IMG/VR virus record: IMGVR_UViG_3300030116_003118
Location: 20,495 to 84,494 of that record
Reading direction: 5' to 3' (one strand)
From: a virus
Length of the DNA stretch: 64,000 bases
Below, one piece after another: positions 23,424 to 46,223 of this stretch. The stretch's first letter is position 1. Each line of letters starts with the position of its first letter. The position numbers were made by a program, and so were the translations under genes. The notes under the pieces are model-generated. The model was not told where the DNA came from. It saw nothing but the letters and a program-made list of their open reading frames with translations, and ran no database searches.

Positions 23424-24045
23424 GTATGTTCGCCCGGACTAATTTGTTAAACACTTAAAATCGAAAATTTGGCCCGTAATTTATTTGCCACTTGCGTTTT
23501 TTTTCTACCTGTTTTAATTACATTCCCAGAATAAAAATGTTTTTATCATTCTTTTAGTGGTAAAAGAGACCATTAGTTTTGTATTCTTTACTTCGCGACC
23601 CCGTTTTTACAGTACATTAATTACAGGCTTTACTTTTGGTCGCTCTGTATATAGATATCACAGGTGCGGGTACTATTTAGATATACTACTAGCAGGTATT
23701 AAGATTTTAAGCCTGCTGCGACTAAATAAAACAAATAAAAATCAAAGAAAAAAAATCGTTCCAAAGCATATGGTCATGCAAATATATTTGACCCGTAAGG
23801 AATATCATTCAATCACGAATGTAATCTTCTACGCACAATTGCTGATTGCAGCAATTGTAGGTACTATGTACCTGTAGAATTATACCGCGATTTACTTCCC
23901 TTCCATATGGTCATGTAAATACATGCACCCGTCAGGAAATTCTTCCAACAACGATTGTCGTATTCAGTGTTCAGTGGAGCATAGTAGTGATAACACTTAC
24001 TATTACCCTATTTCTCTGAATACGTCATCTTATGTTTTCATCCTT
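23424..24045. other. Non-coding region with hairpins and a 37-nt direct repeat
   Basis: This stretch upstream of the leftward operon has no convincing gene. A 37-nt imperfect direct repeat starts CATATGGTCATG at 23767-23803 and 23904-23940. Strong inverted repeats are ACAATTGC/GCAATTGT (23835-23842 with 23851-23858), AGGTAC/GTACCT (23859-23864 with 23868-23873) and GTATTCAG/CTGAATAC around 23968-24023. The leftward operon promoter should lie near 23430-23520, but I could not single out a TATA box. Confidence 0.55.
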
Positions 24046-24184
24046 CCATATGGTTCGGAGGTGAAACACGGCGGATTAACACGCATTATGAGTTATACTT
24101 CACTCATCATCGTCATAGAAAATATCCACGTTTTCACCTCCATACGAACCCGGCGGGTTGCACAACTTGTGACAACCATATGGT
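24046..24184 (+). other. Structured palindrome-bounded element
   Basis: Bounded by CCATATGG at 24046 and ACCATATGGT at 24175. Stem 1 pairs GGTTCG (24052-24057) with CGAACC (24145-24150) and GAGGTGAAA (24058-24066) with TTTCACCTC (24132-24140), enclosing ATGAGT/ACTCAT. A small hairpin AACCC/GGGTT (24147-24159) overlaps it, and GGTTG (24156-24160) can instead pair with CAACC (24173-24177) at the palindrome. Orientation is set by the AACC arm entering the palindrome. Confidence 0.6.
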
Positions 24185-24210
24185 AATGCCTGTGCTTTGC
24201 AAACAGAATG

Positions 24211-24223
24211 CCCGATAAACGGG
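24211..24223 (-). terminator. Small hairpin after the leftward small-gene cluster
   Basis: CCCG and CGGG form a short GC stem with a 5-base loop, lying 3 bases beyond the stop of the last leftward gene of the cluster (24226-24330). Position suggests transcript end or 3' protection; there is no clear U-tract. Confidence 0.35.
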
Positions 24224-24225
24224 AC

Positions 24226-24330
24226 TTACTTCATTGTTACGATTTTACAGCAATTACCCATCTTTACTCTAAAATCGCCTAATTCCATTCCGCAGGTTTC
24301 ACATATTTTAATCATTATTTTTACATCCAT
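24226..24330 (-). CDS. Mini zinc-ribbon protein
   Basis: A 34-codon frame starting at ATG 24330 inside the end of the preceding mini-gene. It encodes CETCG and a later Cys pair (NCCKI), a half zinc-ribbon pattern. Last gene of the small leftward cluster within the structured array. Support is the motif and overlapping gene arrangement. Confidence 0.45.
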   Translation of the reverse strand: MDVKIMIKICETCGMELGDFRVKMGNCCKIVTMK

Positions 24331-24391
24331 TAAACCAGCACCAATAGAACGAGGATTCACAATCATTACAGGAGGGAAGGGTATTTCTCAT
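24308..24391 (-). CDS. Mini Cys-rich peptide
   Basis: A 27-codon frame starting two bases after the stop of the 24393-25121 gene. It encodes CNDCESSFYWCWFNGC, a compact four-Cys pattern that could bind one zinc. Coupled by overlap to the next mini-gene. Short length keeps confidence low. Confidence 0.4.
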   Translation of the reverse strand: MRNTLPSCNDCESSFYWCWFNGCKNND

Positions 24392-24392
24392 A

Positions 24393-25121
24393 CTAATCCT
24401 CCAATACCTGTTTAGTAGTCTCAGGCGTACATTCGTAATTAGCCTCGCTTTTTATACTTGTCTCACAATCAACCTCTATCATTACAACATCATCTGAATA
24501 CTTCTGTAATATATCTGTAACTGTTTTGCGCATCTTCTTCATTGTGGATAGTGGTGTTTCTACTAGCATAAACTCAATGTTCTTTCTATCGGTCACTGAT
24601 TCGGCTTCGTAAGTGATTACCATTTTTAGAGTAAAAGAACCACCGTATCCTTGTTCAAATTTGGTCTTCATTGTAGTGCCATCTTCAAACAATACTTTGC
24701 CCATAGCACCAGCAGATATTTGTTCTGCTCCTTCTGGTAATTCAAAGACTTCTTCATCCACTACTAGATATTCGCCTCTTACTCTCTTCCAATCATGGCT
24801 GCTTGTTTTGGTATAATTGGTAGCAATAGTGGCTTCAATACCATATTCATCTAATCCTTCTATTGCTCTATCAGCCTGTGAACTGTAAGCAAGAGTCATC
24901 ATAATTTGATTGTTATCATCAACAATGCTGTATGTAGTTTCTTCATCTATTATTTCTTGAAAACCATAGTTCTCTGCGCTCGGAGTTCCATAAGCGTAAC
25001 TAGCAGTTAGTGCCAAACCCTTATCAAATAGGTCTGATTGCACCTTTCTGTTCAATTTCTTGTGGTCTCTAAAACTATCACTCTTGAATTTGATTGCCAT
25101 CTTTCTTTCATATATTGTCAT
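24393..25121 (-). CDS. Unknown protein inside the structured array
   Basis: A 242-residue protein starting MTIYERKMAIKF, possibly from the later Met 8. It is beta-rich in the middle with an acidic, Cys-containing C-terminus (VDCETS, ECTPE). No known domain. It immediately follows the 62-residue gene (TAAATG junction) and is flanked by palindrome elements, so it may be co-regulated with the array genes. Confidence 0.65.
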   Translation of the reverse strand: MTIYERKMAIKFKSDSFRDHKKLNRKVQSDLFDKGLALTASYAYGTPSAENYGFQEIIDEETTYSIVDDNNQIMMTLAYSSQADRAIEGLDEYGIEATIATNYTKTSSHDWKRVRGEYLVVDEEVFELPEGAEQISAGAMGKVLFEDGTTMKTKFEQGYGGSFTLKMVITYEAESVTDRKNIEFMLVETPLSTMKKMRKTVTDILQKYSDDVVMIEVDCETSIKSEANYECTPETTKQVLED

Positions 25122-25310
25122 TTACTCATCTCCTATTTGTTCAACATAATCATTCAATGCTGACTTCATATCTTTCATTACATCTTCTAGGTTATCACCA
25201 GATACCTTTAGTTTGCTAATACACAATACTAGGGCAGACCCAGATTTCATGTGCTTAACCTCTAACACGTATTTTGGCTCGTTAATTATTGTTGCGTCAT
25301 TTGTTTCCAT
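25122..25310 (-). CDS. Small protein, probably leaderless mRNA
   Basis: Start placed at METNDATI (ATG 25310). A longer in-frame start at 25355 would run through the TATA box. The 62-residue product has an alternating hydrophobic pattern (YVLEVKHM, ALVLCISKL) followed by a helix, like a small alpha/beta fold. It is translationally linked to the next gene. No family recognised. Confidence 0.6.
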   Translation of the reverse strand: METNDATIINEPKYVLEVKHMKSGSALVLCISKLKVSGDNLEDVMKDMKSALNDYVEQIGDE

Positions 25311-25331
25311 ACATCTTATTAGTTTTATCAG

Positions 25332-25341
25332 AATATATAGG
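25332..25341 (-). promoter_or_regulatory. TATA box for the 25310 leftward gene
   Basis: Minus-strand CTATATATTC is a good archaeal TATA-like element. It lies about 22-31 bases before ATG 25310, the spacing expected if transcription begins at or next to the start codon, implying a leaderless transcript. Confidence 0.5.
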
Positions 25342-25363
25342 GTGAGTGTTAGCAAAGCACACT

Positions 25364-25390
25364 ACCATATGGTTTGCTTTGCGTTAAACC
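25364..25390 (-). other. Palindrome-linked closing stem, minus orientation
   Basis: On the minus strand GGTTT (25390-25386) pairs with AAACC (25375-25371), the latter running into ACCATATGGT (25364-25373); the loop contains GCAAAGC. This is the same closing-stem design as the rightward elements, but inverted. It follows the 3' end of the 25420-25965 gene as the copy at 28611-28651 follows the 28012-28521 gene. Confidence 0.6.
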
Positions 25391-25397
25391 CGGATGG

Positions 25398-25426
25398 AGA
25401 ATAGGGGGTAATTACCCCCCTATTCT
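25398..25426 (-). terminator. Strong hairpin overlapping the stop of the 25420-25965 gene
   Basis: AGAATAGGGGG and CCCCCCTATTCT form an almost perfect inverted repeat around TAATTA, and the TAG stop of the upstream leftward gene lies in one arm. A likely transcript-end or stability hairpin, mirrored by the hairpin at the end of the paralogous gene (28506-28533). Confidence 0.6.
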
Positions 25427-25965
25427 TCTTCCCCTCCGTCAATGAAGGATACAACAGGGTATCCCTCAGAATCGTAAGAGCCATCCCAATGATACTTCTT
25501 GGAAGTGTCATTGTTTGCGTGGGCGTTAAATGCACCATTCAGGAATGTGCGCTCCTTCTTGGTCATTTCCTTTGCGTATGCCTCTGCACCATCGGCCATA
25601 TCTCTGTAAAGAAGGCCACCGGACTTTCCGTGCGTTCTTAGGGTTGCGTAAATTGCGGGGTAAACCACATCTCTGCAAGCCACGAAATACACTTCATTGA
25701 GGTATAGGTCGAATTGAGACTTGGTTGCGATATCCATCAAGGATTTGCGGCCTTGTCCAATTGGAGAGTTAGCGACATCGGTGAATACACCGACTATGCT
25801 GTTCCAATATCTCTTTCGGGTGCTTGGGTTAGCGTCACCGAGAGTGAACATTGAACGAACCATTGCGGCCAAATCCGATTGTTCGGGGTTAGCCGCAAAC
25901 CACTCTTCCAAGTCTGCTTTCTTTGCGTTCCATCTGTTATCATCTATGCTGTTATCTGTTGCCAT
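25420..25965 (-). CDS. Array-flanking paralogue A
   Basis: A 181-residue soluble, mostly helical protein. It shares with the 28012-28521 product a Leu-Ala-x-Met ... GD-x-N-x-STR ... NSI block and a later LR-x-HGKS-x-G block followed by a DA/GAEAYA-like helix, so the two are diverged paralogues. GGAGAT precedes the start. The C-terminus is acidic. Base composition looks more GC-rich than neighbouring genes. The pair flanks the densest part of the structured array, suggesting function with it. No known family recognised. Confidence 0.7.
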   Translation of the reverse strand: MATDNSIDDNRWNAKKADLEEWFAANPEQSDLAAMVRSMFTLGDANPSTRKRYWNSIVGVFTDVANSPIGQGRKSLMDIATKSQFDLYLNEVYFVACRDVVYPAIYATLRTHGKSGGLLYRDMADGAEAYAKEMTKKERTFLNGAFNAHANNDTSKKYHWDGSYDSEGYPVVSFIDGGEEE

Positions 25966-26034
25966 AAATCATCATCTCCGTTGATTAGTAGGGTAGTACC
26001 CCCTATTATCTCCGTTCTATTAAATGCTACAGAA

Positions 26035-26044
26035 CATATATGGT
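26035..26044 (-). promoter_or_regulatory. Promoter of array-flanking paralogue A
   Basis: Minus-strand ACCATATATG lies 70-79 bases before ATG 25965 and about 20 bases after an ACCATATGGT copy (26066-26075) in the transcription direction. The paralogous gene at 28012 has the same pairing of ACCATATGGT and ACCATATATAT upstream, which supports a shared promoter/operator design. Confidence 0.45.
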
Positions 26045-26049
26045 TTTTA

Positions 26050-26077
26050 TTTCACAAAGTATAACACCATATGGTTA
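26050..26077. repeat. 28-bp direct repeat including the palindrome (copy 1)
   Basis: The stretch beginning TTTCACAAAGTAT and ending with ACCATATGGTTA recurs at 27136-27163 with a single mismatch. In copy 1 it forms the upstream part of the leftward promoter for the 25420-25965 gene, so copy 2 may carry a related leftward promoter or a protein-binding site. Confidence 0.65.
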
Positions 26078-26381
26078 TGAAGTAGGCTACAAAAGAGTTC
26101 AGGCTACAGCCACTCGCACTCTATAGTGCGAATCTAAATGTGGTGAGATGTGCCTGAAATCTATTGTAGTCGCTCAATACCCCAAATCGGGTTTTGTCCG
26201 ACTCAAACAATAATAGACGGTAAATCAAGTTTTAGACTTAACCAATGCTGCTTTCGCTTAGGCTAGATACATTGTGTATCTTAGCAGCCTTAGAGCCTTC
26301 TTATTGATGTAGTTAATTTTAACAACATCAATAATTAAAACATGATAAACCATCTATTAACTCATCGGACAACCATATGGT
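26078..26381 (+). other. Structured module A
   Basis: Domain I is a stacked hairpin: CTACAA/TTGTAG (26087-26092, 26164-26169), TTCAGGC/GCCTGAA (26098-26104, 26152-26158) and CGCACT/AGTGCG (26115-26130), followed by AATCTAAATGT, also found in module E. Then ACCC/GGGT. Domain II is closed by TTGTCCGA/TCGGACAA (26194-26201, 26365-26372) and TAATAGACGGT/ACCATCTATTA (26211-26221, 26349-26359, one mismatch). It encloses GCTGCT/AGCAGC, GATACA/TGTATC and the 10-bp stem TTATTGATGT/ACATCAATAA. The 3' end abuts the palindrome at 26372. Confidence 0.65.
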
Positions 26382-26681
26382 TGAGTTTAGATAATAGTAG
26401 AACTTTCGAAACGTAAAGGAGGGCTTTCGAAAGTGCATACCTAGCGTGGTAATTCTCAATTACAGCCAAAGTGATAGCGTAGTATGCAGTATCGAAAGAA
26501 CGAGTTTAGGTTTCGAAAGGCTACTTATCATAAACGACACCCTATTTCTTTTGTCGGGTATAAACCTTTACGCTGCGTTATACGAGCAGCACATCCTTCG
26601 TGACGCTTTGGCTCTTATTATGAATAATCACTTCAATTGTACTGCCGTATAACGCGCTCTTTTTGTTTATTACCATATGGT
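26372..26681 (+). other. Structured module B
   Basis: Domain I is closed by a near-perfect 20-bp stem between 26397-26417 and 26505-26524 containing TTTCGAAA on both sides. Inside are CTTTCGA/TCGAAAG, GCATAC/GTATGC and GTAATT/AATTAC with a 3-base loop. Domain II is closed by GGTATAAAC (26557-26565) with GTTTATTACC (26665-26674), one bulge, then GCGTTATACG/CGTATAACGC (26575-26584, 26646-26655, perfect). The last C-C of the closing arm is part of the palindrome at 26672. Confidence 0.65.
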
Positions 26682-27161
26682 TTTGCTTTGCGAATAAACC
26701 AGATTTCAAATTGAAGGATGCGAGTGATTATTGATTATGGGGGCAAATCTTCGGCATCACCTTAATTCCCCTCACTCGACTTATTTCCTTCAATGGGCTT
26801 GAATCTGAATGGGTTTTGTTTTGTGCTTTCCTAAGGCACTCTCAGACCCGACTGAGTAAATGAAAGTGTAGGGGAGATTATGTTTCCACATCTTCCCAAT
26901 TCCGAATGCGTGTTAGTTTTAAGAAAATTTGCTAAGTTTCTTATTAACGCCGGAATACCAGATTATGACCCCGCTAAGGGTTGTGTAGTGTGGTATCTTT
27001 TTCTTCAATCCCACTCCCTGCCCACTATAGGCTCTAATCTGTGCCTTACACCCTAACAACGGTGTTATTCAGCCACTACTTACCGGGTTGCACTCCCGGC
27101 ATTAGTAGGTAAGTAACCGAATATATGAGGTGTTCTTTCACAAAGTATCACACCATATGGT
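26672..27161. other. Structured module C (longer, possibly double)
   Basis: It begins with the palindrome, whose GGTTT can pair with AAACC (26696-26700). A long hairpin follows: CAGATTTCAA/TTGAATCTG (26700-26709, 26799-26807), TTGAAGGA/TCCTTCAA (26711-26718, 26786-26793), CGAGTGA/TCACTCG (26721-26727, 26772-26778) and a G-run/C-run pair. Further hairpins include TTCCG/CGGAA around 26900-26955 with TAAGAAA/TTTCTTA, ATACCA/TGGTAT with ACCC/GGGT near 26956-26996, and ACTTACC/GGTAAGT near 27077-27113. The transcribed strand is uncertain. Confidence 0.55.
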
Positions 27162-27163
27162 TA
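27136..27163. repeat. 28-bp direct repeat including the palindrome (copy 2)
   Basis: It matches 26050-26077 at 27 of 28 positions and includes ACCATATGGT at 27152-27161. On the minus strand it is followed by CATATATTC, so a leftward promoter like that of the 25420-25965 gene may be present. Confidence 0.65.
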
Positions 27164-27466
27164 CATAGTGTGAGTTTACGCCTAAGGCTGTATTTTGGGT
27201 CTCTTTCAATAAGAGAGTCCAAACGTGGCCAAAAGCCAGCGTTAGGCGTAAAGGAACCTTGATAACCTGACGGGTTGTCTTTTGTATTTGTAAGGCTGTC
27301 TTCGTTCAATTCAAATGGCAATCATAAAGTTTTACCTTGTTGTAACGCTTAGGCTCACTGTAATGACAGTGTACTAAGGCCGCGCACTGATTTGCGCTGG
27401 CCTGTAAAACATTATGTTACCATCTTCATCTTGCCAGCCTTTTGTTTTGTAAGACAACCATATGGT
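27152..27466 (+). other. Structured module D
   Basis: Domain I: perfect 11-bp stem TTTACGCCTAA/TTAGGCGTAAA (27175-27185, 27242-27252) enclosing GGCT/AGCC and an inner stem with TCTCTT/AAGAGA. A small hairpin AACC-tgac-GGGTT (27264-27276) follows. Domain II closing stem GGTTGTC/GACAACC (27273-27279, 27453-27459) is continued by AAGGCTG/CAGCCTT (27292-27298, 27435-27441). The AACC of the 3' arm is the start of the palindrome at 27457. The GGTT segment is shared by the small hairpin and the closing stem. Confidence 0.65.
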
Positions 27467-27732
27467 AAGGATAAACGTATGCTGGTGGTATAGGCTCTCT
27501 AAAGAGCCAATCTAAATGTTAAATACTTCCAGCATACGGAGATACACCAGATTTCTGGTCGGGTATTATGGAAAGTTTCGCTTAACTAGGGTGATAAACG
27601 GCGCAGGAAGGGTAAAGTTCTACGAAGCGTAAAACGTGTTGACTTGTATCTTGGATACATTTACTCTTTACCACTCCTGCGACCAGTTTCTCACTCCTAT
27701 TTAAGACTCAACTATTTCCTAAACCATATGGT
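27457..27732 (+). other. Structured module E
   Basis: Domain I: perfect CGTATGCTGG/CCAGCATACG (27476-27485, 27529-27538) enclosing GGCTCT/AGAGCC, then AATCTAAATGT as in module A. A hairpin ACCAG/CTGGT follows. Domain II is closed by GGGTATTATGGAAAGTT (27561-27577) with AACTATTTCCTAAACC (27710-27725), with small bulges. Inside lies CGCAGGAAGGGTAAAG/CTTTACCACTCCTGCG (27602-27617, 27666-27681), which contains TGTATC-ttg-GATACA. The arm ends in the palindrome at 27723. Confidence 0.65.
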
Positions 27733-27934
27733 ACGATTAATTGAACAGATAGATGCCTTAATCGCTTCTGTTAAAAGTAGGCAACTGGGAAATCGAAACT
27801 GCCTACCTCCGTTTCGACTGGAAGTGTAAAAATTACACCTTCGCTCCGAAAAAAACGGCTTGTTTTTCCTTCTCGGCTTTCCAGACCCCTGAAAAACGCT
27901 ATCATTACCATATGGTTCGGCTTTGTATAGAACC
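27723..27934 (+). other. Structured module F, upstream of paralogue B
   Basis: Shorter module: GTAGGCA/TGCCTAC (27777-27783, 27800-27806), GTGTAA/TTACAC (27824-27829, 27833-27838) and GTTTTTC/GAAAAAC (about 27861-27897). After the palindrome at 27907 a closing-type stem GGTTC/GAACC (27914-27918, 27930-27934) runs directly into the TATA-like ATATATATAC. Confidence 0.5.
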
Positions 27935-27944
27935 ATATATATAC
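27935..27944 (+). promoter_or_regulatory. Promoter of array-flanking paralogue B
   Basis: ATATATATAC preceded by GAACC, 68-77 bases before ATG 28012. ACCATATGGT lies 19 bases upstream. The same order is found before the paralogous leftward gene. The start codon has its own SD-like GGTGAT about 6 bases upstream, so the transcript likely has a leader. Confidence 0.5.
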
Positions 27945-28011
27945 TCGATGACCTTGCCAAGAATGCCCCCGAACAGAGGCAACGAATGATAAAAACAATA
28001 GGTGATAAAAG

Positions 28012-28521
28012 ATGGAAGATATTGAGTGGGATTCAGTAAAGATAAAAGTAAACACTATGCTTGAAGGAAACGCAGAAGTAGGTGACATACCTTCTGATGT
28101 CGTTACCCTAGCACAGATGTTAATAACGACAGGAGATAATAACTCCTCAACAAGAGATAGCCTGACTAACAGCATTAAGGACATGCTAAAGCCATACGCA
28201 GGATATCCGTGGAAGAGAGGCAATCAGGGCATTCTACCAGCCGCAGCCCGCGCTGTAGTAGATTCTGCAACTGATAACATCAGAGAAGCAGCAAGAACGT
28301 TCTTTAACGAGACTTCGCAGTATTCTCAGCCACTTCTGCGAAAGCACGGTAAGAGCAAGGGTTCCCCTGTTTACGCCGATGCTGACGAGTATGCAAACGA
28401 ACTTGCATCAAAGGCTCGTAAGGCAGCAACACAACTCTTCAAGGATGGAGAGTGGGATGGTTCGCTATCCGGCCTTGCTGCTTGTGCGGCTTATGATGAC
28501 GTAACTACGGAGGATGAGTGA
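28012..28521 (+). CDS. Array-flanking paralogue B
   Basis: A 169-residue helical protein homologous to the 25420-25965 product. Shared features are a GD-x-N-x-STR block near residues 41-50, NSI, and LRKHGKSKG followed by an EYANEL helix. GGTGAT precedes the start. The gene ends in a strong hairpin and then a closing-stem/palindrome element, as does its paralogue. No known family; possibly an RNA- or DNA-binding partner of the array, inferred only from position. Confidence 0.7.
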   Translation: MEDIEWDSVKIKVNTMLEGNAEVGDIPSDVVTLAQMLITTGDNNSSTRDSLTNSIKDMLKPYAGYPWKRGNQGILPAAARAVVDSATDNIREAARTFFNETSQYSQPLLRKHGKSKGSPVYADADEYANELASKARKAATQLFKDGEWDGSLSGLAACAAYDDVTTEDE

Positions 28522-28533
28522 TTATCCTCCGTA
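28506..28533 (+). terminator. Hairpin overlapping the stop of paralogue B
   Basis: A perfect 10-bp inverted repeat TACGGAGGAT/ATCCTCCGTA (28506-28515, 28524-28533) with the TGA stop in the loop. It matches the arrangement at the end of the paralogous gene. Likely transcript end or 3' stabiliser. Confidence 0.6.
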
Positions 28534-28544
28534 GCCTATAGTTC

Positions 28545-28651
28545 GGGTGCATTTTCTCGGAGAGTGGGAATAGGGTCTTTAATGGCCTTATTCCCCTCTC
28601 CCTCTTTTCAGGTTCTTATTTCCGAGCAAAGCAGAAATAGAACCATATGGT
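28545..28651 (+). other. Structured element after paralogue B
   Basis: Hairpin GGGAATAGG/CCTTATTCCC (28566-28574, 28586-28595) extended by GAGAG/CTCTC, followed by the closing stem GGTTCTTATTTC/GAAATAGAACC (28611-28622, 28634-28644), which runs into ACCATATGGT at 28642-28651. The loop contains GCAAAGC, as in the inverted copy at 25364-25390. A minimal version of the array module. Confidence 0.6.
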
Positions 28652-30371: not shown

Positions 30372-30458
30372 TGCGGGATTCCCAAGTATGGTCAAAGGGG
30401 CCGGACTTAAGATTCGGTGCGTAGTGCTTCGGGGGTTCAAATCCCCCTCCCGCAACCA
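30372..30458 (+). tRNA. tRNA-Leu (UAA)
   Basis: All cloverleaf parts can be paired: acceptor TGCGGGA (30372-30378) with TCCCGCA (30448-30454), U8, a CCC/GGG D-stem, anticodon stem CCGGA/TTCGG around loop CTTAAGA (anticodon TAA), a long variable arm as expected for leucine, and T-stem GGGGG/CCCCC around TTCAAAT. The 3' CCA is encoded (30456-30458). It would decode UUA, a common codon in this AT-rich genome. Confidence 0.92.
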
Positions 30459-30482
30459 TTCAAAATAATAGATGTGATAACA

Positions 30483-31013
30483 ATGAATATATTTGTATTA
30501 GATGAAAACCCAAAAACAGCAGCACAAATGATGAACGACAAACATGTGGTAAAAATGCCATTAGAAAGTTTACAGATGATTTCAACATGTATGACTTTAC
30601 GAGGATTCAATGGCCCTTATCGCAAGTCATTTGCTTATCATCCTTGTACCATATGGGCAAGACAAACAAGTGAGAATCTTGTTTGGTTGATTGAGCATTT
30701 CAAAGCATTGTGCGAAGAATATACGTTGAGATATAACAAAGTTCACAAGTGTCAAAAGACCTTTGAACAATCAGAAGATGAGGTAAAGAAATTGATTGAG
30801 TATTTACCTAAAGATGGACTTACACCATTCGCTATTGCAATCAGCCCTGATATGTTTTGCAGAAAGGTAGAAGGCTTTGATAGTCTTTCTGCTGTAGATA
30901 AATATCGTTTGTATTATCTACATGACAAAAAACATATTGCTGATTGGAAAACAAAACCGCCTCAATGGTGGACAGACTTTTACAAGATGGAGGAAGAATA
31001 TGGGTTGCAATAA
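30483..31013 (+). CDS. Conserved phage-type protein with DKHVVKMPLES motif
   Basis: A 176-residue protein starting MNIFVLDENP after SD-like GTGAT. It contains DKHVVKMPLESLQM, HPCTIWARQT and a C-terminal YRLYYLHDKKHIADW stretch. I recognise the combination from a widespread family of phage and marine virus proteins of unknown function. Conserved H, D, K, C and W residues suggest an enzyme, possibly a nucleic-acid enzyme. No firmer name can be given. Confidence 0.65.
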   Translation: MNIFVLDENPKTAAQMMNDKHVVKMPLESLQMISTCMTLRGFNGPYRKSFAYHPCTIWARQTSENLVWLIEHFKALCEEYTLRYNKVHKCQKTFEQSEDEVKKLIEYLPKDGLTPFAIAISPDMFCRKVEGFDSLSAVDKYRLYYLHDKKHIADWKTKPPQWWTDFYKMEEEYGLQ

Positions 31014-44525: not shown

Positions 44526-44682
44526 TTTGTTAGTTAATAGACATACCCATAGAAAGGCTATTGTTGATTCAATAGAAGCAGATTGGCCTATACCAATATA
44601 TGTTCTTGAATATCAAGATGGTAATGGTGGGCAACTTAGAATCAACATGCGCTATGAAAAACATTGGGAGAAGGTTGAATGA
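44506..44682 (+). CDS. Small beta-rich protein
   Basis: A 58-residue protein from ATG 44506, with GAGG upstream. Pattern FKVNDLLVN ... IYVLEYQDGNGGQLRI resembles a small SH3-like barrel. Ends with an overlap into the ligase gene. Unknown function. Confidence 0.5.
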   Translation: MKFKVNDLLVNRHTHRKAIVDSIEADWPIPIYVLEYQDGNGGQLRINMRYEKHWEKVE

Positions 44683-46223
44683 AGTTTTCTGCATTTGCTA
44701 GACTATGTGAAAGTTTGGAGTATGTATCTCCTACTACTAAAGTAAATTTAGTTAGTCAGGCAATGAAAGATATCAATACTAATAATATTATATTGATGAA
44801 AGTTCTTGCATTAGAATTTCCCATTTCCAACATAGGTTCTAAGAGAGTGCAGAAATGGGTTTGTACTGCTCTAGGTATTTTTGATGATGAGTTAGATGAT
44901 TCTATTTATACTTGGGGAGATTTAGCAGAAGCAGTTGCTCAAATAGATGAGGGTAATGAAACTGATTCTAATTATTCTTTGGCGGCAGTTTATTCTATGC
45001 TGTGTTTAGATTATAGTAGAATGGAAGGTAGTAATACTTATGATGTTTTTCAAAAAGCATTCAACTCCTTTAGTGCTAGAGAAAAGAAATGGTTCATTAG
45101 GTACTGGCTGAGAACACCCCGAAATGGTATCAGCAACAAAATACCTTTGAAGATTCTAGGAAAAAGATATCATTATAAACTAAAAGACATAGAATACTTT
45201 AGAATGTTTAATGATGTAGGTACTATAACAGAAGCATTAGAAGGCGGTTATCAACCTGAATGTAAATTAGAACATGGAGTGTTTGTATCTCCAATGCTTG
45301 CTAAACCTAGAAAGGGACAGGAAAGACCAGATAAATATATCATTGATGTAAAGTATGATGGTAACAGATATCAGATTCATAAGAAAGGTGAGGACATTAT
45401 TATTTTTAATCGTAAAGGAAAGATTGTTACAGCGCAGTTTCCTGATGTCGTAGAATCAGTTTCTCATTTTGAGATAGATGATGCAATATTAGATACTGAA
45501 ATATATCCTATTAATCCAAGAGGCGGCGAACCTGCTGAACATAAGTTAATGGCAAAAAGAGTACATAAGAAAAATATTGCAGAAGCAGTAGAACAATGCC
45601 CAGTACAATTAGCAGTTTTTGATGTATTGTCTATCAATGGAGAAGTCTGTATTGATATGGTTTTTTCCGAGAGATTAATACGATTGAAACAATTTGTACC
45701 TGATGTATTTCAAGCAAAGCGATTTGAGTCCGAAAGTATTAAGGCGGCATATAACCTAGCAATTGATTGGGGTTATGAAGGTATTATGATTAAAGATGCT
45801 GATATGGCTTACCAAGCAGGTAAGAGAAGCAAGGGATGGTTAAAGTATAAGCCACCACTAATCGAACTAGATGTTGTCATTACTTCTGCTTCATATGGTG
45901 AAGGCAAAAGAAGTAATGTCTTTGGAACATTTGGTATTTCTGTAAAGGATGGTTCTGACTATGTACCCGTAGGTAAAGTTGGAACAGGATTTTCTGATTG
46001 GGACTTAGATTTCTTAACAAAAGAGTTAAGAAAGAATGTTGATTACTTTGAAGGAGATACCTATTATTTTCTCCCAAGAGTTGTATTGACTGTAAGAAGT
46101 GATTTAGTTTCAACGGATGCTAAAGGAAACATCGGGCTTCGATTTCCAAGAAGCCGCGCTATCCGTCACGACAAGTTTGCTTCTGACGCTGATACGCTGA
46201 CAAGACTACAGGAGATGGCATAA
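44679..46223 (+). CDS. lig: ATP-dependent DNA ligase
   Basis: A 514-residue ligase that seals nicks during viral replication. An N-terminal helical DNA-binding domain (about 1-200) precedes the adenylation domain with motif I KYDGNR (K225 is the AMP acceptor), a DTEIYP motif III-like stretch, EGIMIKD (motif IV) and KYKP (motif V), then an OB-fold domain. Length and domain order match archaeal/eukaryotic ligase I-type enzymes. Confidence 0.92.
   Translation: MKFSAFARLCESLEYVSPTTKVNLVSQAMKDINTNNIILMKVLALEFPISNIGSKRVQKWVCTALGIFDDELDDSIYTWGDLAEAVAQIDEGNETDSNYSLAAVYSMLCLDYSRMEGSNTYDVFQKAFNSFSAREKKWFIRYWLRTPRNGISNKIPLKILGKRYHYKLKDIEYFRMFNDVGTITEALEGGYQPECKLEHGVFVSPMLAKPRKGQERPDKYIIDVKYDGNRYQIHKKGEDIIIFNRKGKIVTAQFPDVVESVSHFEIDDAILDTEIYPINPRGGEPAEHKLMAKRVHKKNIAEAVEQCPVQLAVFDVLSINGEVCIDMVFSERLIRLKQFVPDVFQAKRFESESIKAAYNLAIDWGYEGIMIKDADMAYQAGKRSKGWLKYKPPLIELDVVITSASYGEGKRSNVFGTFGISVKDGSDYVPVGKVGTGFSDWDLDFLTKELRKNVDYFEGDTYYFLPRVVLTVRSDLVSTDAKGNIGLRFPRSRAIRHDKFASDADTLTRLQEMA

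Follow-up and report, generated by a model that had tools for sequence, protein, structure and literature searches.

A palindrome-bounded array of genes and folded modules whose units are permuted and inverted between related marine viruses

The DNA analyzed here (hereafter, the window) is a 64,000-bp stretch comprising positions 20,495-84,494 of the 84,494-bp virus record IMGVR_UViG_3300030116_003118. It contains a cassette array at 23765..28651 (no strand assigned), in which 13 copies of a 10-bp palindrome delimit 12 intervals. Ten copies are exact matches to ACCATATGGT (at 24175, 25364, 26066, 26372, 26672, 27152, 27457, 27723, 27907, and 28642), and three near-copies carry one mismatch each (23765, 23902, and 24045). 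With at most one mismatch allowed, ACCATATGGT occurs 15 times in the 64 kb, compared with a mean of 1.85 and a maximum of 5 in shuffled sequences. All 10 exact copies in the full record are confined to 24,175-28,651, and the reversed string occurs once. An initial annotation of this DNA had described an array of modules bounded by the palindrome, and that array is real, with exact copies nowhere else in the record. What the annotation overlooked is that these are cassettes that can change order and flip: our comparisons show that, from one related virus to another, whole units differ in order and single units in orientation, and the rearranged segments end at the palindrome or close to it.

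From left to right, the array begins with three short non-coding modules at 23775..24174 (no strand assigned; edges at 23765, 23902, 24045, and 24175), which fold on the + strand with z-scores of -4.0 to -6.6 when palindromes are kept. The gene cassette at 24185..25363 (- strand) has CTTTG near both ends and an open reading frame (ORF) of family 1 at 24393-25121 (242 aa). A second gene cassette, 25374..26065 (-), carries a family-0 ORF (25420-25965, 181 aa) and the CTTTG hairpin GGTTTGCTTTGCGTTAAACC at 25371-25390. Two non-coding hairpin modules follow, one at 26076..26371 (+) with the signature motif CGCTTAGGC at 26255-26263, and one at 26382..26671 (no strand assigned) with 38-nt inverted-repeat arms at 26403-26440 and 26482-26519. 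The CTTTG-bounded cassette at 26672..27161 (-) has no ORF of at least 75 aa; the TATA-like box CTCATATATTC adjoins its right-hand CTTTG hairpin, and leftward transcription is predicted. Within it lies a manA-type structured RNA (RF01745; 26863..27101, - strand) that scores 32 bits, under the family's gathering score, while homologs in other arrays score 42-62 bits. Beyond this cassette are non-coding hairpin modules at 27162..27456 (+; CGCTTAGGC at 27346-27354) and 27467..27722 (no strand assigned; z about -10 on both strands), and a non-coding module at 27733..27906 (no strand assigned) whose final 55-65 bp are 95-97% identical in the related arrays L007-L009. The last unit is a gene cassette at 27917..28641 (+) with a family-0 ORF (28012-28521, 169 aa), a CTTTG hairpin at 27914-27934, and a TATA-like box at 27932-27944. 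The annotated description of the modules as non-coding holds for most of them, but three intervals contain genes (24393-25121 and 25420-25965 on the - strand, 28012-28521 on the + strand). The left 200 bp of the family-1 cassette (24185-24393) is 88-91% identical in L007-L009, whereas the adjoining protein is only 40-45% identical; this segment may be an additional conserved element or a small gene.

A protein search with the ORF at 28012-28521 identified eight contigs, and all eight contain the array. Further contigs came from two scans for palindrome pairs at set distances; these pattern scans are blind to array frequency in relatives with a different palindrome, and only the eight protein-found contigs are unbiased in this respect. 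Altogether, 34 IMG/VR contigs have at least four copies of CCATATGG in the stretch examined. Ten loci outside the 34 have two or three copies (L020, L026, L027, L031, L037, L038, L040, L044, L052, and L058), and the modules of the three-copy loci among them did enter our module counts (classes, CTTTG, and folding). In a whole-contig search, the full palindrome was present in 4-14 copies in 28/28 contigs and a reversed-string control in 0/28. The consensus over 356 distinct sites is approximately YANWACCATATGGTWNTR, with weak outer positions. Units are mostly 80-1,600 bp, and their lengths are highly unequal in every array. Contig 3300030451_002116 carries an array that matches the window's at 100% identity over 5,001 bases; L006 represents the same virus as the window. 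The protein encoded at 28012 gave no tBLASTn match among named phages. A scan of cellular sequences for palindrome pairs returned 11 stretches, none with more than four copies of CCATATGG except L070, and thus yielded neither an array nor a link to a host. L070, from an Erysipelotrichaceae metagenome-assembled genome, is a 66-bp tandem repeat with 29 copies of CCATATGG, a simple repeat that is seemingly unrelated.

We compared modules among 35 arrays, defining a full-length match as one covering at least 85% of both modules. Thirteen array pairs share at least three matches, and of the 86 full-length matches in these pairs, 11 are inverted relative to the majority orientation and six more have moved. 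Since the pairs overlap (L007/L008/L009; L017/L034/L039; L011 and L014 with the contig carrying L018 and L012), the number of independent events is smaller. Between L011 and the L018+L012 contig, the 11 matches include three inversions and two moves: modules 6, 7, and 9 are singly inverted, a 499-bp manA cassette is among the inverted modules, a 693-bp gene cassette is relocated, and the large gene cassettes are 90-98% identical. Family-0 gene cassettes are also inverted between L017 and L034, and between L014 and the L018+L012 contig. At both module ends, inverted matches stop no more than 15 bases short, and most run to the very end. Matched modules retain 80-97% identity between contigs. 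The window's own module at 27162..27456 is homologous to L007 5738-6066 and L009 8742-9060, at other places in those arrays. Relatives differ in unit order and orientation while identical arrays are unrearranged, indicating that rearrangement is fast relative to substitution. One pair of modules at equal positions, L007 8755-9044 and L008 8750-9048, is 97% identical in its first half and unlike in its second.

The array forms the junction of two divergent gene arms in a tailed marine virus with archaeal-type replication genes. Structural genes in the window encode a portal protein, terminase, and major capsid protein, and the other arm encodes a family B DNA polymerase, an RFC-like clamp loader, an ATP-dependent ligase, an ERCC4-type nuclease, a Sak4-like protein, and ribonucleotide reductase. 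The portal is closest to those of haloarchaeal tailed viruses (~30% identity), and marine archaeal viruses have been placed around the haloarchaeal tailed virus group (PMC8651126). Divergent arms flank the array in those relatives whose flanking genes are present, and GC skew switches sign at the array. Two proteins with ATP-dependent DNA ligase domains are encoded in this one virus, one at 44679-46223 and one more in the structural arm.

Two classes of unit can be told apart: "expressed" cassettes, which carry genes or a manA RNA together with CTTTG hairpins, and plain modules. No ORF of at least 75 aa is present in 195/298 units. Both ends have CTTTG just inside the palindrome in 48/61 units with an ORF of at least 130 aa and in 25/42 units with an ORF of 75-129 aa; among non-coding units, the figures are 16/24 for those of at least 400 bp, 9/51 for 200-399 bp, and 2/120 for those under 200 bp. 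The motif sits in a hairpin whose stem starts with the palindrome's GGT and closes with ACC. This stem averages 5.9 pairs in coding cassettes (5.9-6.4 over the coding, mid, and large classes), compared with 2.9 in shuffles. In the clade of L015, L023, and L030, ATTTG replaces CTTTG. Among coding cassettes with CTTTG at both ends, a TATA-like pattern is found at the gene's 5′ end in 32/48 and at its 3′ end in 2/48; at the ends of other non-coding modules it is found in 12/282. With inverted CTTTG hairpins at both ends and a TATA-like box at the 5′ end, a cassette is predicted to retain its own promoter in either orientation.

Family 0 is the commonest cassette gene, with 41 array members; it occurs in 18/19 records in one to three copies each, and the ORFs at 25420-25965 and 28012-28521 are paralogs. 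Searches against PHROGs gave nothing under E = 0.026. An AlphaFold2 model of the family (predicted local distance difference test score (pLDDT) 84, predicted template modeling score 0.54) has no PDB match at E ≤ 0.001; in BFVD it matches one viral model at E = 9e-5 and another at 8e-3. Family 1 (ORF 24393-25121) has seven array members, and its AlphaFold2 model (pLDDT 73) likewise has no PDB match at E ≤ 0.001.

Inverted-repeat folding with palindromes included gave z-scores of about -3 to -12 for each module and strand in the window, compared with about +1 to -2.7 for seven control stretches. Across many viruses, 174 non-coding modules folded without their palindromes or any G-U pairs have a median z of -2.68 (78 under -3), while 104 stretches outside arrays folded the same way have a median of -0.01 (three under -3; Mann-Whitney p = 1e-20). 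The long inverted repeats noted in the initial annotation are confirmed, and non-coding modules fold much more stably than non-array stretches even without the palindromes. The long-range stem proposed for several modules is partly trivial, as every palindrome copy can pair with every other, and short modules show no pairing past the palindrome. Complementary bases flanking the palindrome, at single sites or across the two ends of a module, were no commoner than expected in short modules and gave a weak signal in long ones. The single plan first suggested for several modules (multi-tier hairpin, AACC/GGTT hairpin, long-range stem) was not confirmed as such; the shared features are other hairpins and motifs: a GGT-arm-CTTTG-arm′-ACC hairpin ends one class of cassette, and a clade-specific signature motif lies inside many others.

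The segment at 26863-27101 (- strand) is, by its alignment to positions 1-192 of the 192-position RF01745 model (E = 1.5e-5 in a 5-kb search; gathering score 55.2), a divergent member of the known manA RNA family. Array homologs in L007, L009, L010, L011, and L041 score 41.9-46.9 bits, and that in L034 scores 62.5 bits, over the gathering score. At E = 0.01, a whole-record search found manA in 10/29 records, none over threshold with that tool; it missed manA in G001 and G003, which cmscan detected, and gave a weak match in G019, the record of L043. At the same cutoff, cmscan found no manA in L014, L015, L017, L029, L030, L043, L045, L046, or L055. The L034 manA stretch has no blastn match among named phages. 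In an alignment of nine sequences, 37 of 48 consensus pairs show compensatory change, and GU:AC counts are 55:6 on the manA strand and 4:15 on the opposite strand. The manA RNA is described as common in potential 5′ untranslated regions (UTRs), in marine sequences and cyanophages (PMC2864571). The RNA and its homologs here align to the full model as expected of that family, but the RNA is a stand-alone cassette with its own TATA-like box; the cassette has no ORF of at least 75 aa and CTTTG on both sides, and the RNA is thus predicted not to lie in a 5′ UTR. For this module, the annotated "array of viral structured RNAs" is borne out. For the other modules, strand-symmetric wobble and occurrence in either orientation speak against an RNA array read from one strand.

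Plain modules are marked by signature motifs. In the window's clade, CGCTTAGGC occurs in 9/18 plain modules and 0/13 expressed cassettes; the motifs of four other clades are ACGCTWAGT (16/21 plain, 1/9 expressed), CATTAAG (37/53 and 0/11), GCGAATAGC (8/11 and 1/5), and CCACCCTC (10/19 and 0/4). The motifs of all five clades occur in both orientations. In three clades, the signature is a constant hairpin loop with variable, complementary arms; in CATTAAG hairpins, the 5-nt loop is constant while the arms come in 31 different sequences, usually with one such hairpin per module, and arm pairs 2, 3, and 4 of these hairpins are Watson-Crick in 38, 34, and 29 of 42.

To compare strands, we counted substitutions in 29 module groups on single-sequence Watson-Crick folds of both strands, with a control in which pairing partners were slid by 5. 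These counts use all ordered sequence pairs per group and so are not independent events; a viral tRNA-Leu control was counted alike. Pair-preserving double changes number 329 over all groups and 89 with slid partners, upholding the initial annotation's view that pairing is preserved despite sequence change. A covariation count on pairs common to both-strand consensus folds was dropped, as it excludes wobble by construction for sequence pairs. The 29 groups together show 147 GU and 148 AC changes, and without the manA groups (G4, H4, and K2) the ratio is 118:100, compared with 49:10 in the tRNA control. At stems of at least 4 pairs, G4 (manA) is the sole group with p < 0.05 (0:8), which suggests that this test can detect RNA in an array setting; at stems of at least 8 pairs, one non-manA group, K3, is skewed (7:0). 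Because substitutions in plain modules are strand-symmetric, unlike those in tRNA, folding at the DNA level fits these modules better than an RNA array does, and from the substitution pattern we consider it more likely.

The alternative would be that every plain module is an RNA gene, transcribed and processed to a structured RNA, and that shuffling only reorders RNA genes. This idea gains from the presence of one structured RNA, manA, in a cassette, and from the intrinsic direction that signature motifs give to modules: wobble in stem pairs 1-5 of signature hairpins is GT 9 : AC 2 over three clades, and the signature strand is the more stable in 13/17 and 22/33 modules of two clades, although it is worse in a third (1/10; pooled p = 0.77). 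We nonetheless judge it unlikely given the GU and AC counts outside the manA groups, the lack of any non-manA group with p < 0.05 at helices of at least 4 pairs, the TATA-like pattern at just 12/282 module ends, and the absence of any further Rfam match in the window's array at E < 0.8. Symmetric wobble, frequent double changes, and quick module turnover would also be expected if the inverted repeats were a mutational by-product, with template switching at palindromes writing perfect hairpins into unselected modules. This explanation appears quite improbable, as a constant 5-nt loop with 31 arm sequences and palindromes conserved in 34 contigs need selection or copying, and modules have kept 80-97% identity from one contig to another.

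A replication origin or partition site, at which an initiator or ParB-like protein binds the palindromes, hairpins melt or fold, and rearrangement is a side effect, is in our estimate somewhat unlikely as the explanation of the array. The change in GC skew at the array and its place between divergent arms in relatives are compatible with the complex origin proposed in the initial annotation. GC skew follows the coding strand, however, and coding orientation alone would yield an equal skew; moreover, the palindromes are spaced very irregularly, and the array has genes and a manA RNA embedded in it. The origin and cassette readings can both hold.

We consider it probable that this locus is a recombining cassette array at a junction of gene arms, in which palindrome-bounded units are permuted and inverted by exchange through the viral replication-recombination machinery. 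A Pfam model for tyrosine recombinases (PF00589) matched in 0/19 records, some of them possibly incomplete, and in 14/14 known genomes used as positives; that for serine recombinases (PF00239) matched in 0/19 records and 10/14 known genomes. This negative covers the two recombinase families represented by these Pfam models, the only ones searched record by record. An ERCC4-type nuclease is present in 19/19 records, and the window's own genome encodes a Sak4-like annealing protein and ATP-dependent ligases. We propose that the palindrome is the exchange boundary and is bound by a conserved protein, and that folded single strands or cruciforms at palindromes would be cut and rejoined by viral repair and replication proteins. 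Exchange would proceed via the ERCC4-type nuclease, the Sak4-like annealing protein, and ligases rather than a tyrosine or serine recombinase, and because the palindrome is symmetric, units could rejoin either way round. More tentatively, plain modules may act as folded DNA elements, in recombination or at an origin, rather than as single-strand RNAs. A bolder version, which we regard as possible though doubtful, is that the array is a self-rearranging library of folded cassettes, each combining a constant-loop, variable-arm hairpin with symmetric palindromic ends, and that the viral structure-specific nuclease and annealing proteins exchange them in place of a dedicated recombinase. Such a library would maintain, at the genome's center, RNA genes, small genes, and hairpin elements whose order and orientation keep changing.

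Several points weigh against a recombining cassette array of this kind. Arrays that are 100% identical are not rearranged (L017/L039, L016/L030, and the window/L006), and these comparisons gave no evidence of shuffling within a population. A half-module replacement between the sixth modules of L007 and L008 means that exchange extends beyond the palindrome. The enzyme acting on the palindrome is a candidate put forward from gene content, and a divergent recombinase could escape two Pfam models. In two of five clades, about half of the plain modules lack the signature (9/18 and 9/19), the window clade's motif CGCTTAGGC has no clear flanking hairpin, and in the clades of L010, L017, L024, and L055 the motif search gave none equally strong. 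Finally, the GT-biased wobble of the signature hairpins and the greater fold stability of the signature strand in two clades, given above, fit this reading poorly, and these hairpins may act as RNA.

Among T4-type phages, PeSL mobile regulatory cassettes place a promoter-like element with a hairpin before genes, as does a motif of the archaeal myovirus HGTV-1 that joins a TATA sequence to an inverted repeat; roles in transcription and genome shuffling have been proposed (PMC3950731). The arrays here resemble them in that the 5′ ends of genes combine a TATA-like box with an adjacent CTTTG-loop hairpin (32/48, against 2/48 at the 3′ end), but here the hairpin stands at both ends, a 10-bp palindrome bounds each unit, and the inversion and reordering of units are observed directly. 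The PeSL units are genes, whereas 195/298 units here have no ORF of at least 75 aa. Integron (attC) arrays also consist of cassettes reordered by recombination, with folded single-strand substrates, and phage integrons are reportedly another cassette system of this type. Unlike integrons, the arrays here have no match to the tyrosine recombinase family of IntI (PF00589, 0/19 records), and their boundary is a symmetric 10-bp palindrome. Units here lie in both orientations, while integron ORFs, including those of archaeal integrons, generally lie in one (PMC9668308). The regular repeat spacing of CRISPR arrays is not seen, as unit lengths are very unequal in every array. Shufflons and invertible segments comprise multiple repeat-bounded segments that invert. 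As in shufflons and DNA invertase systems, segments here invert at fixed sites (11/86 matched modules, with ends at or near palindromes), but the 19 records have no PF00589 or PF00239 match, the segments are mostly non-coding, and identical strains show no variation. Cluster O mycobacteriophages carry more than 30 17-bp dyad repeats per genome, many intergenic, with insertions and deletions explained by recombination between copies (PMC4351075); those repeats are genome-wide rather than an array of folded modules, and unit inversion or permutation is not described in the available part of that source.

The array is thus partly PeSL-like and partly integron- or shufflon-like, and we rate it as a new kind; our searches of the open-access literature turned up no description of it. 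If our reading is true, many marine virus contigs carry a cassette system that is independent of known recombinases and whose cargo is mostly non-coding structure, which would allow structure-driven genome shuffling to be tested. The array is linked to a new family of paralogous proteins (family 0), and the stand-alone manA RNA bears on the function of that orphan RNA. Elsewhere in the window, a pyrimidine-dimer glycosylase-like protein (PF03013) is encoded at 30372-31013, adjoining a tRNA-Leu gene.

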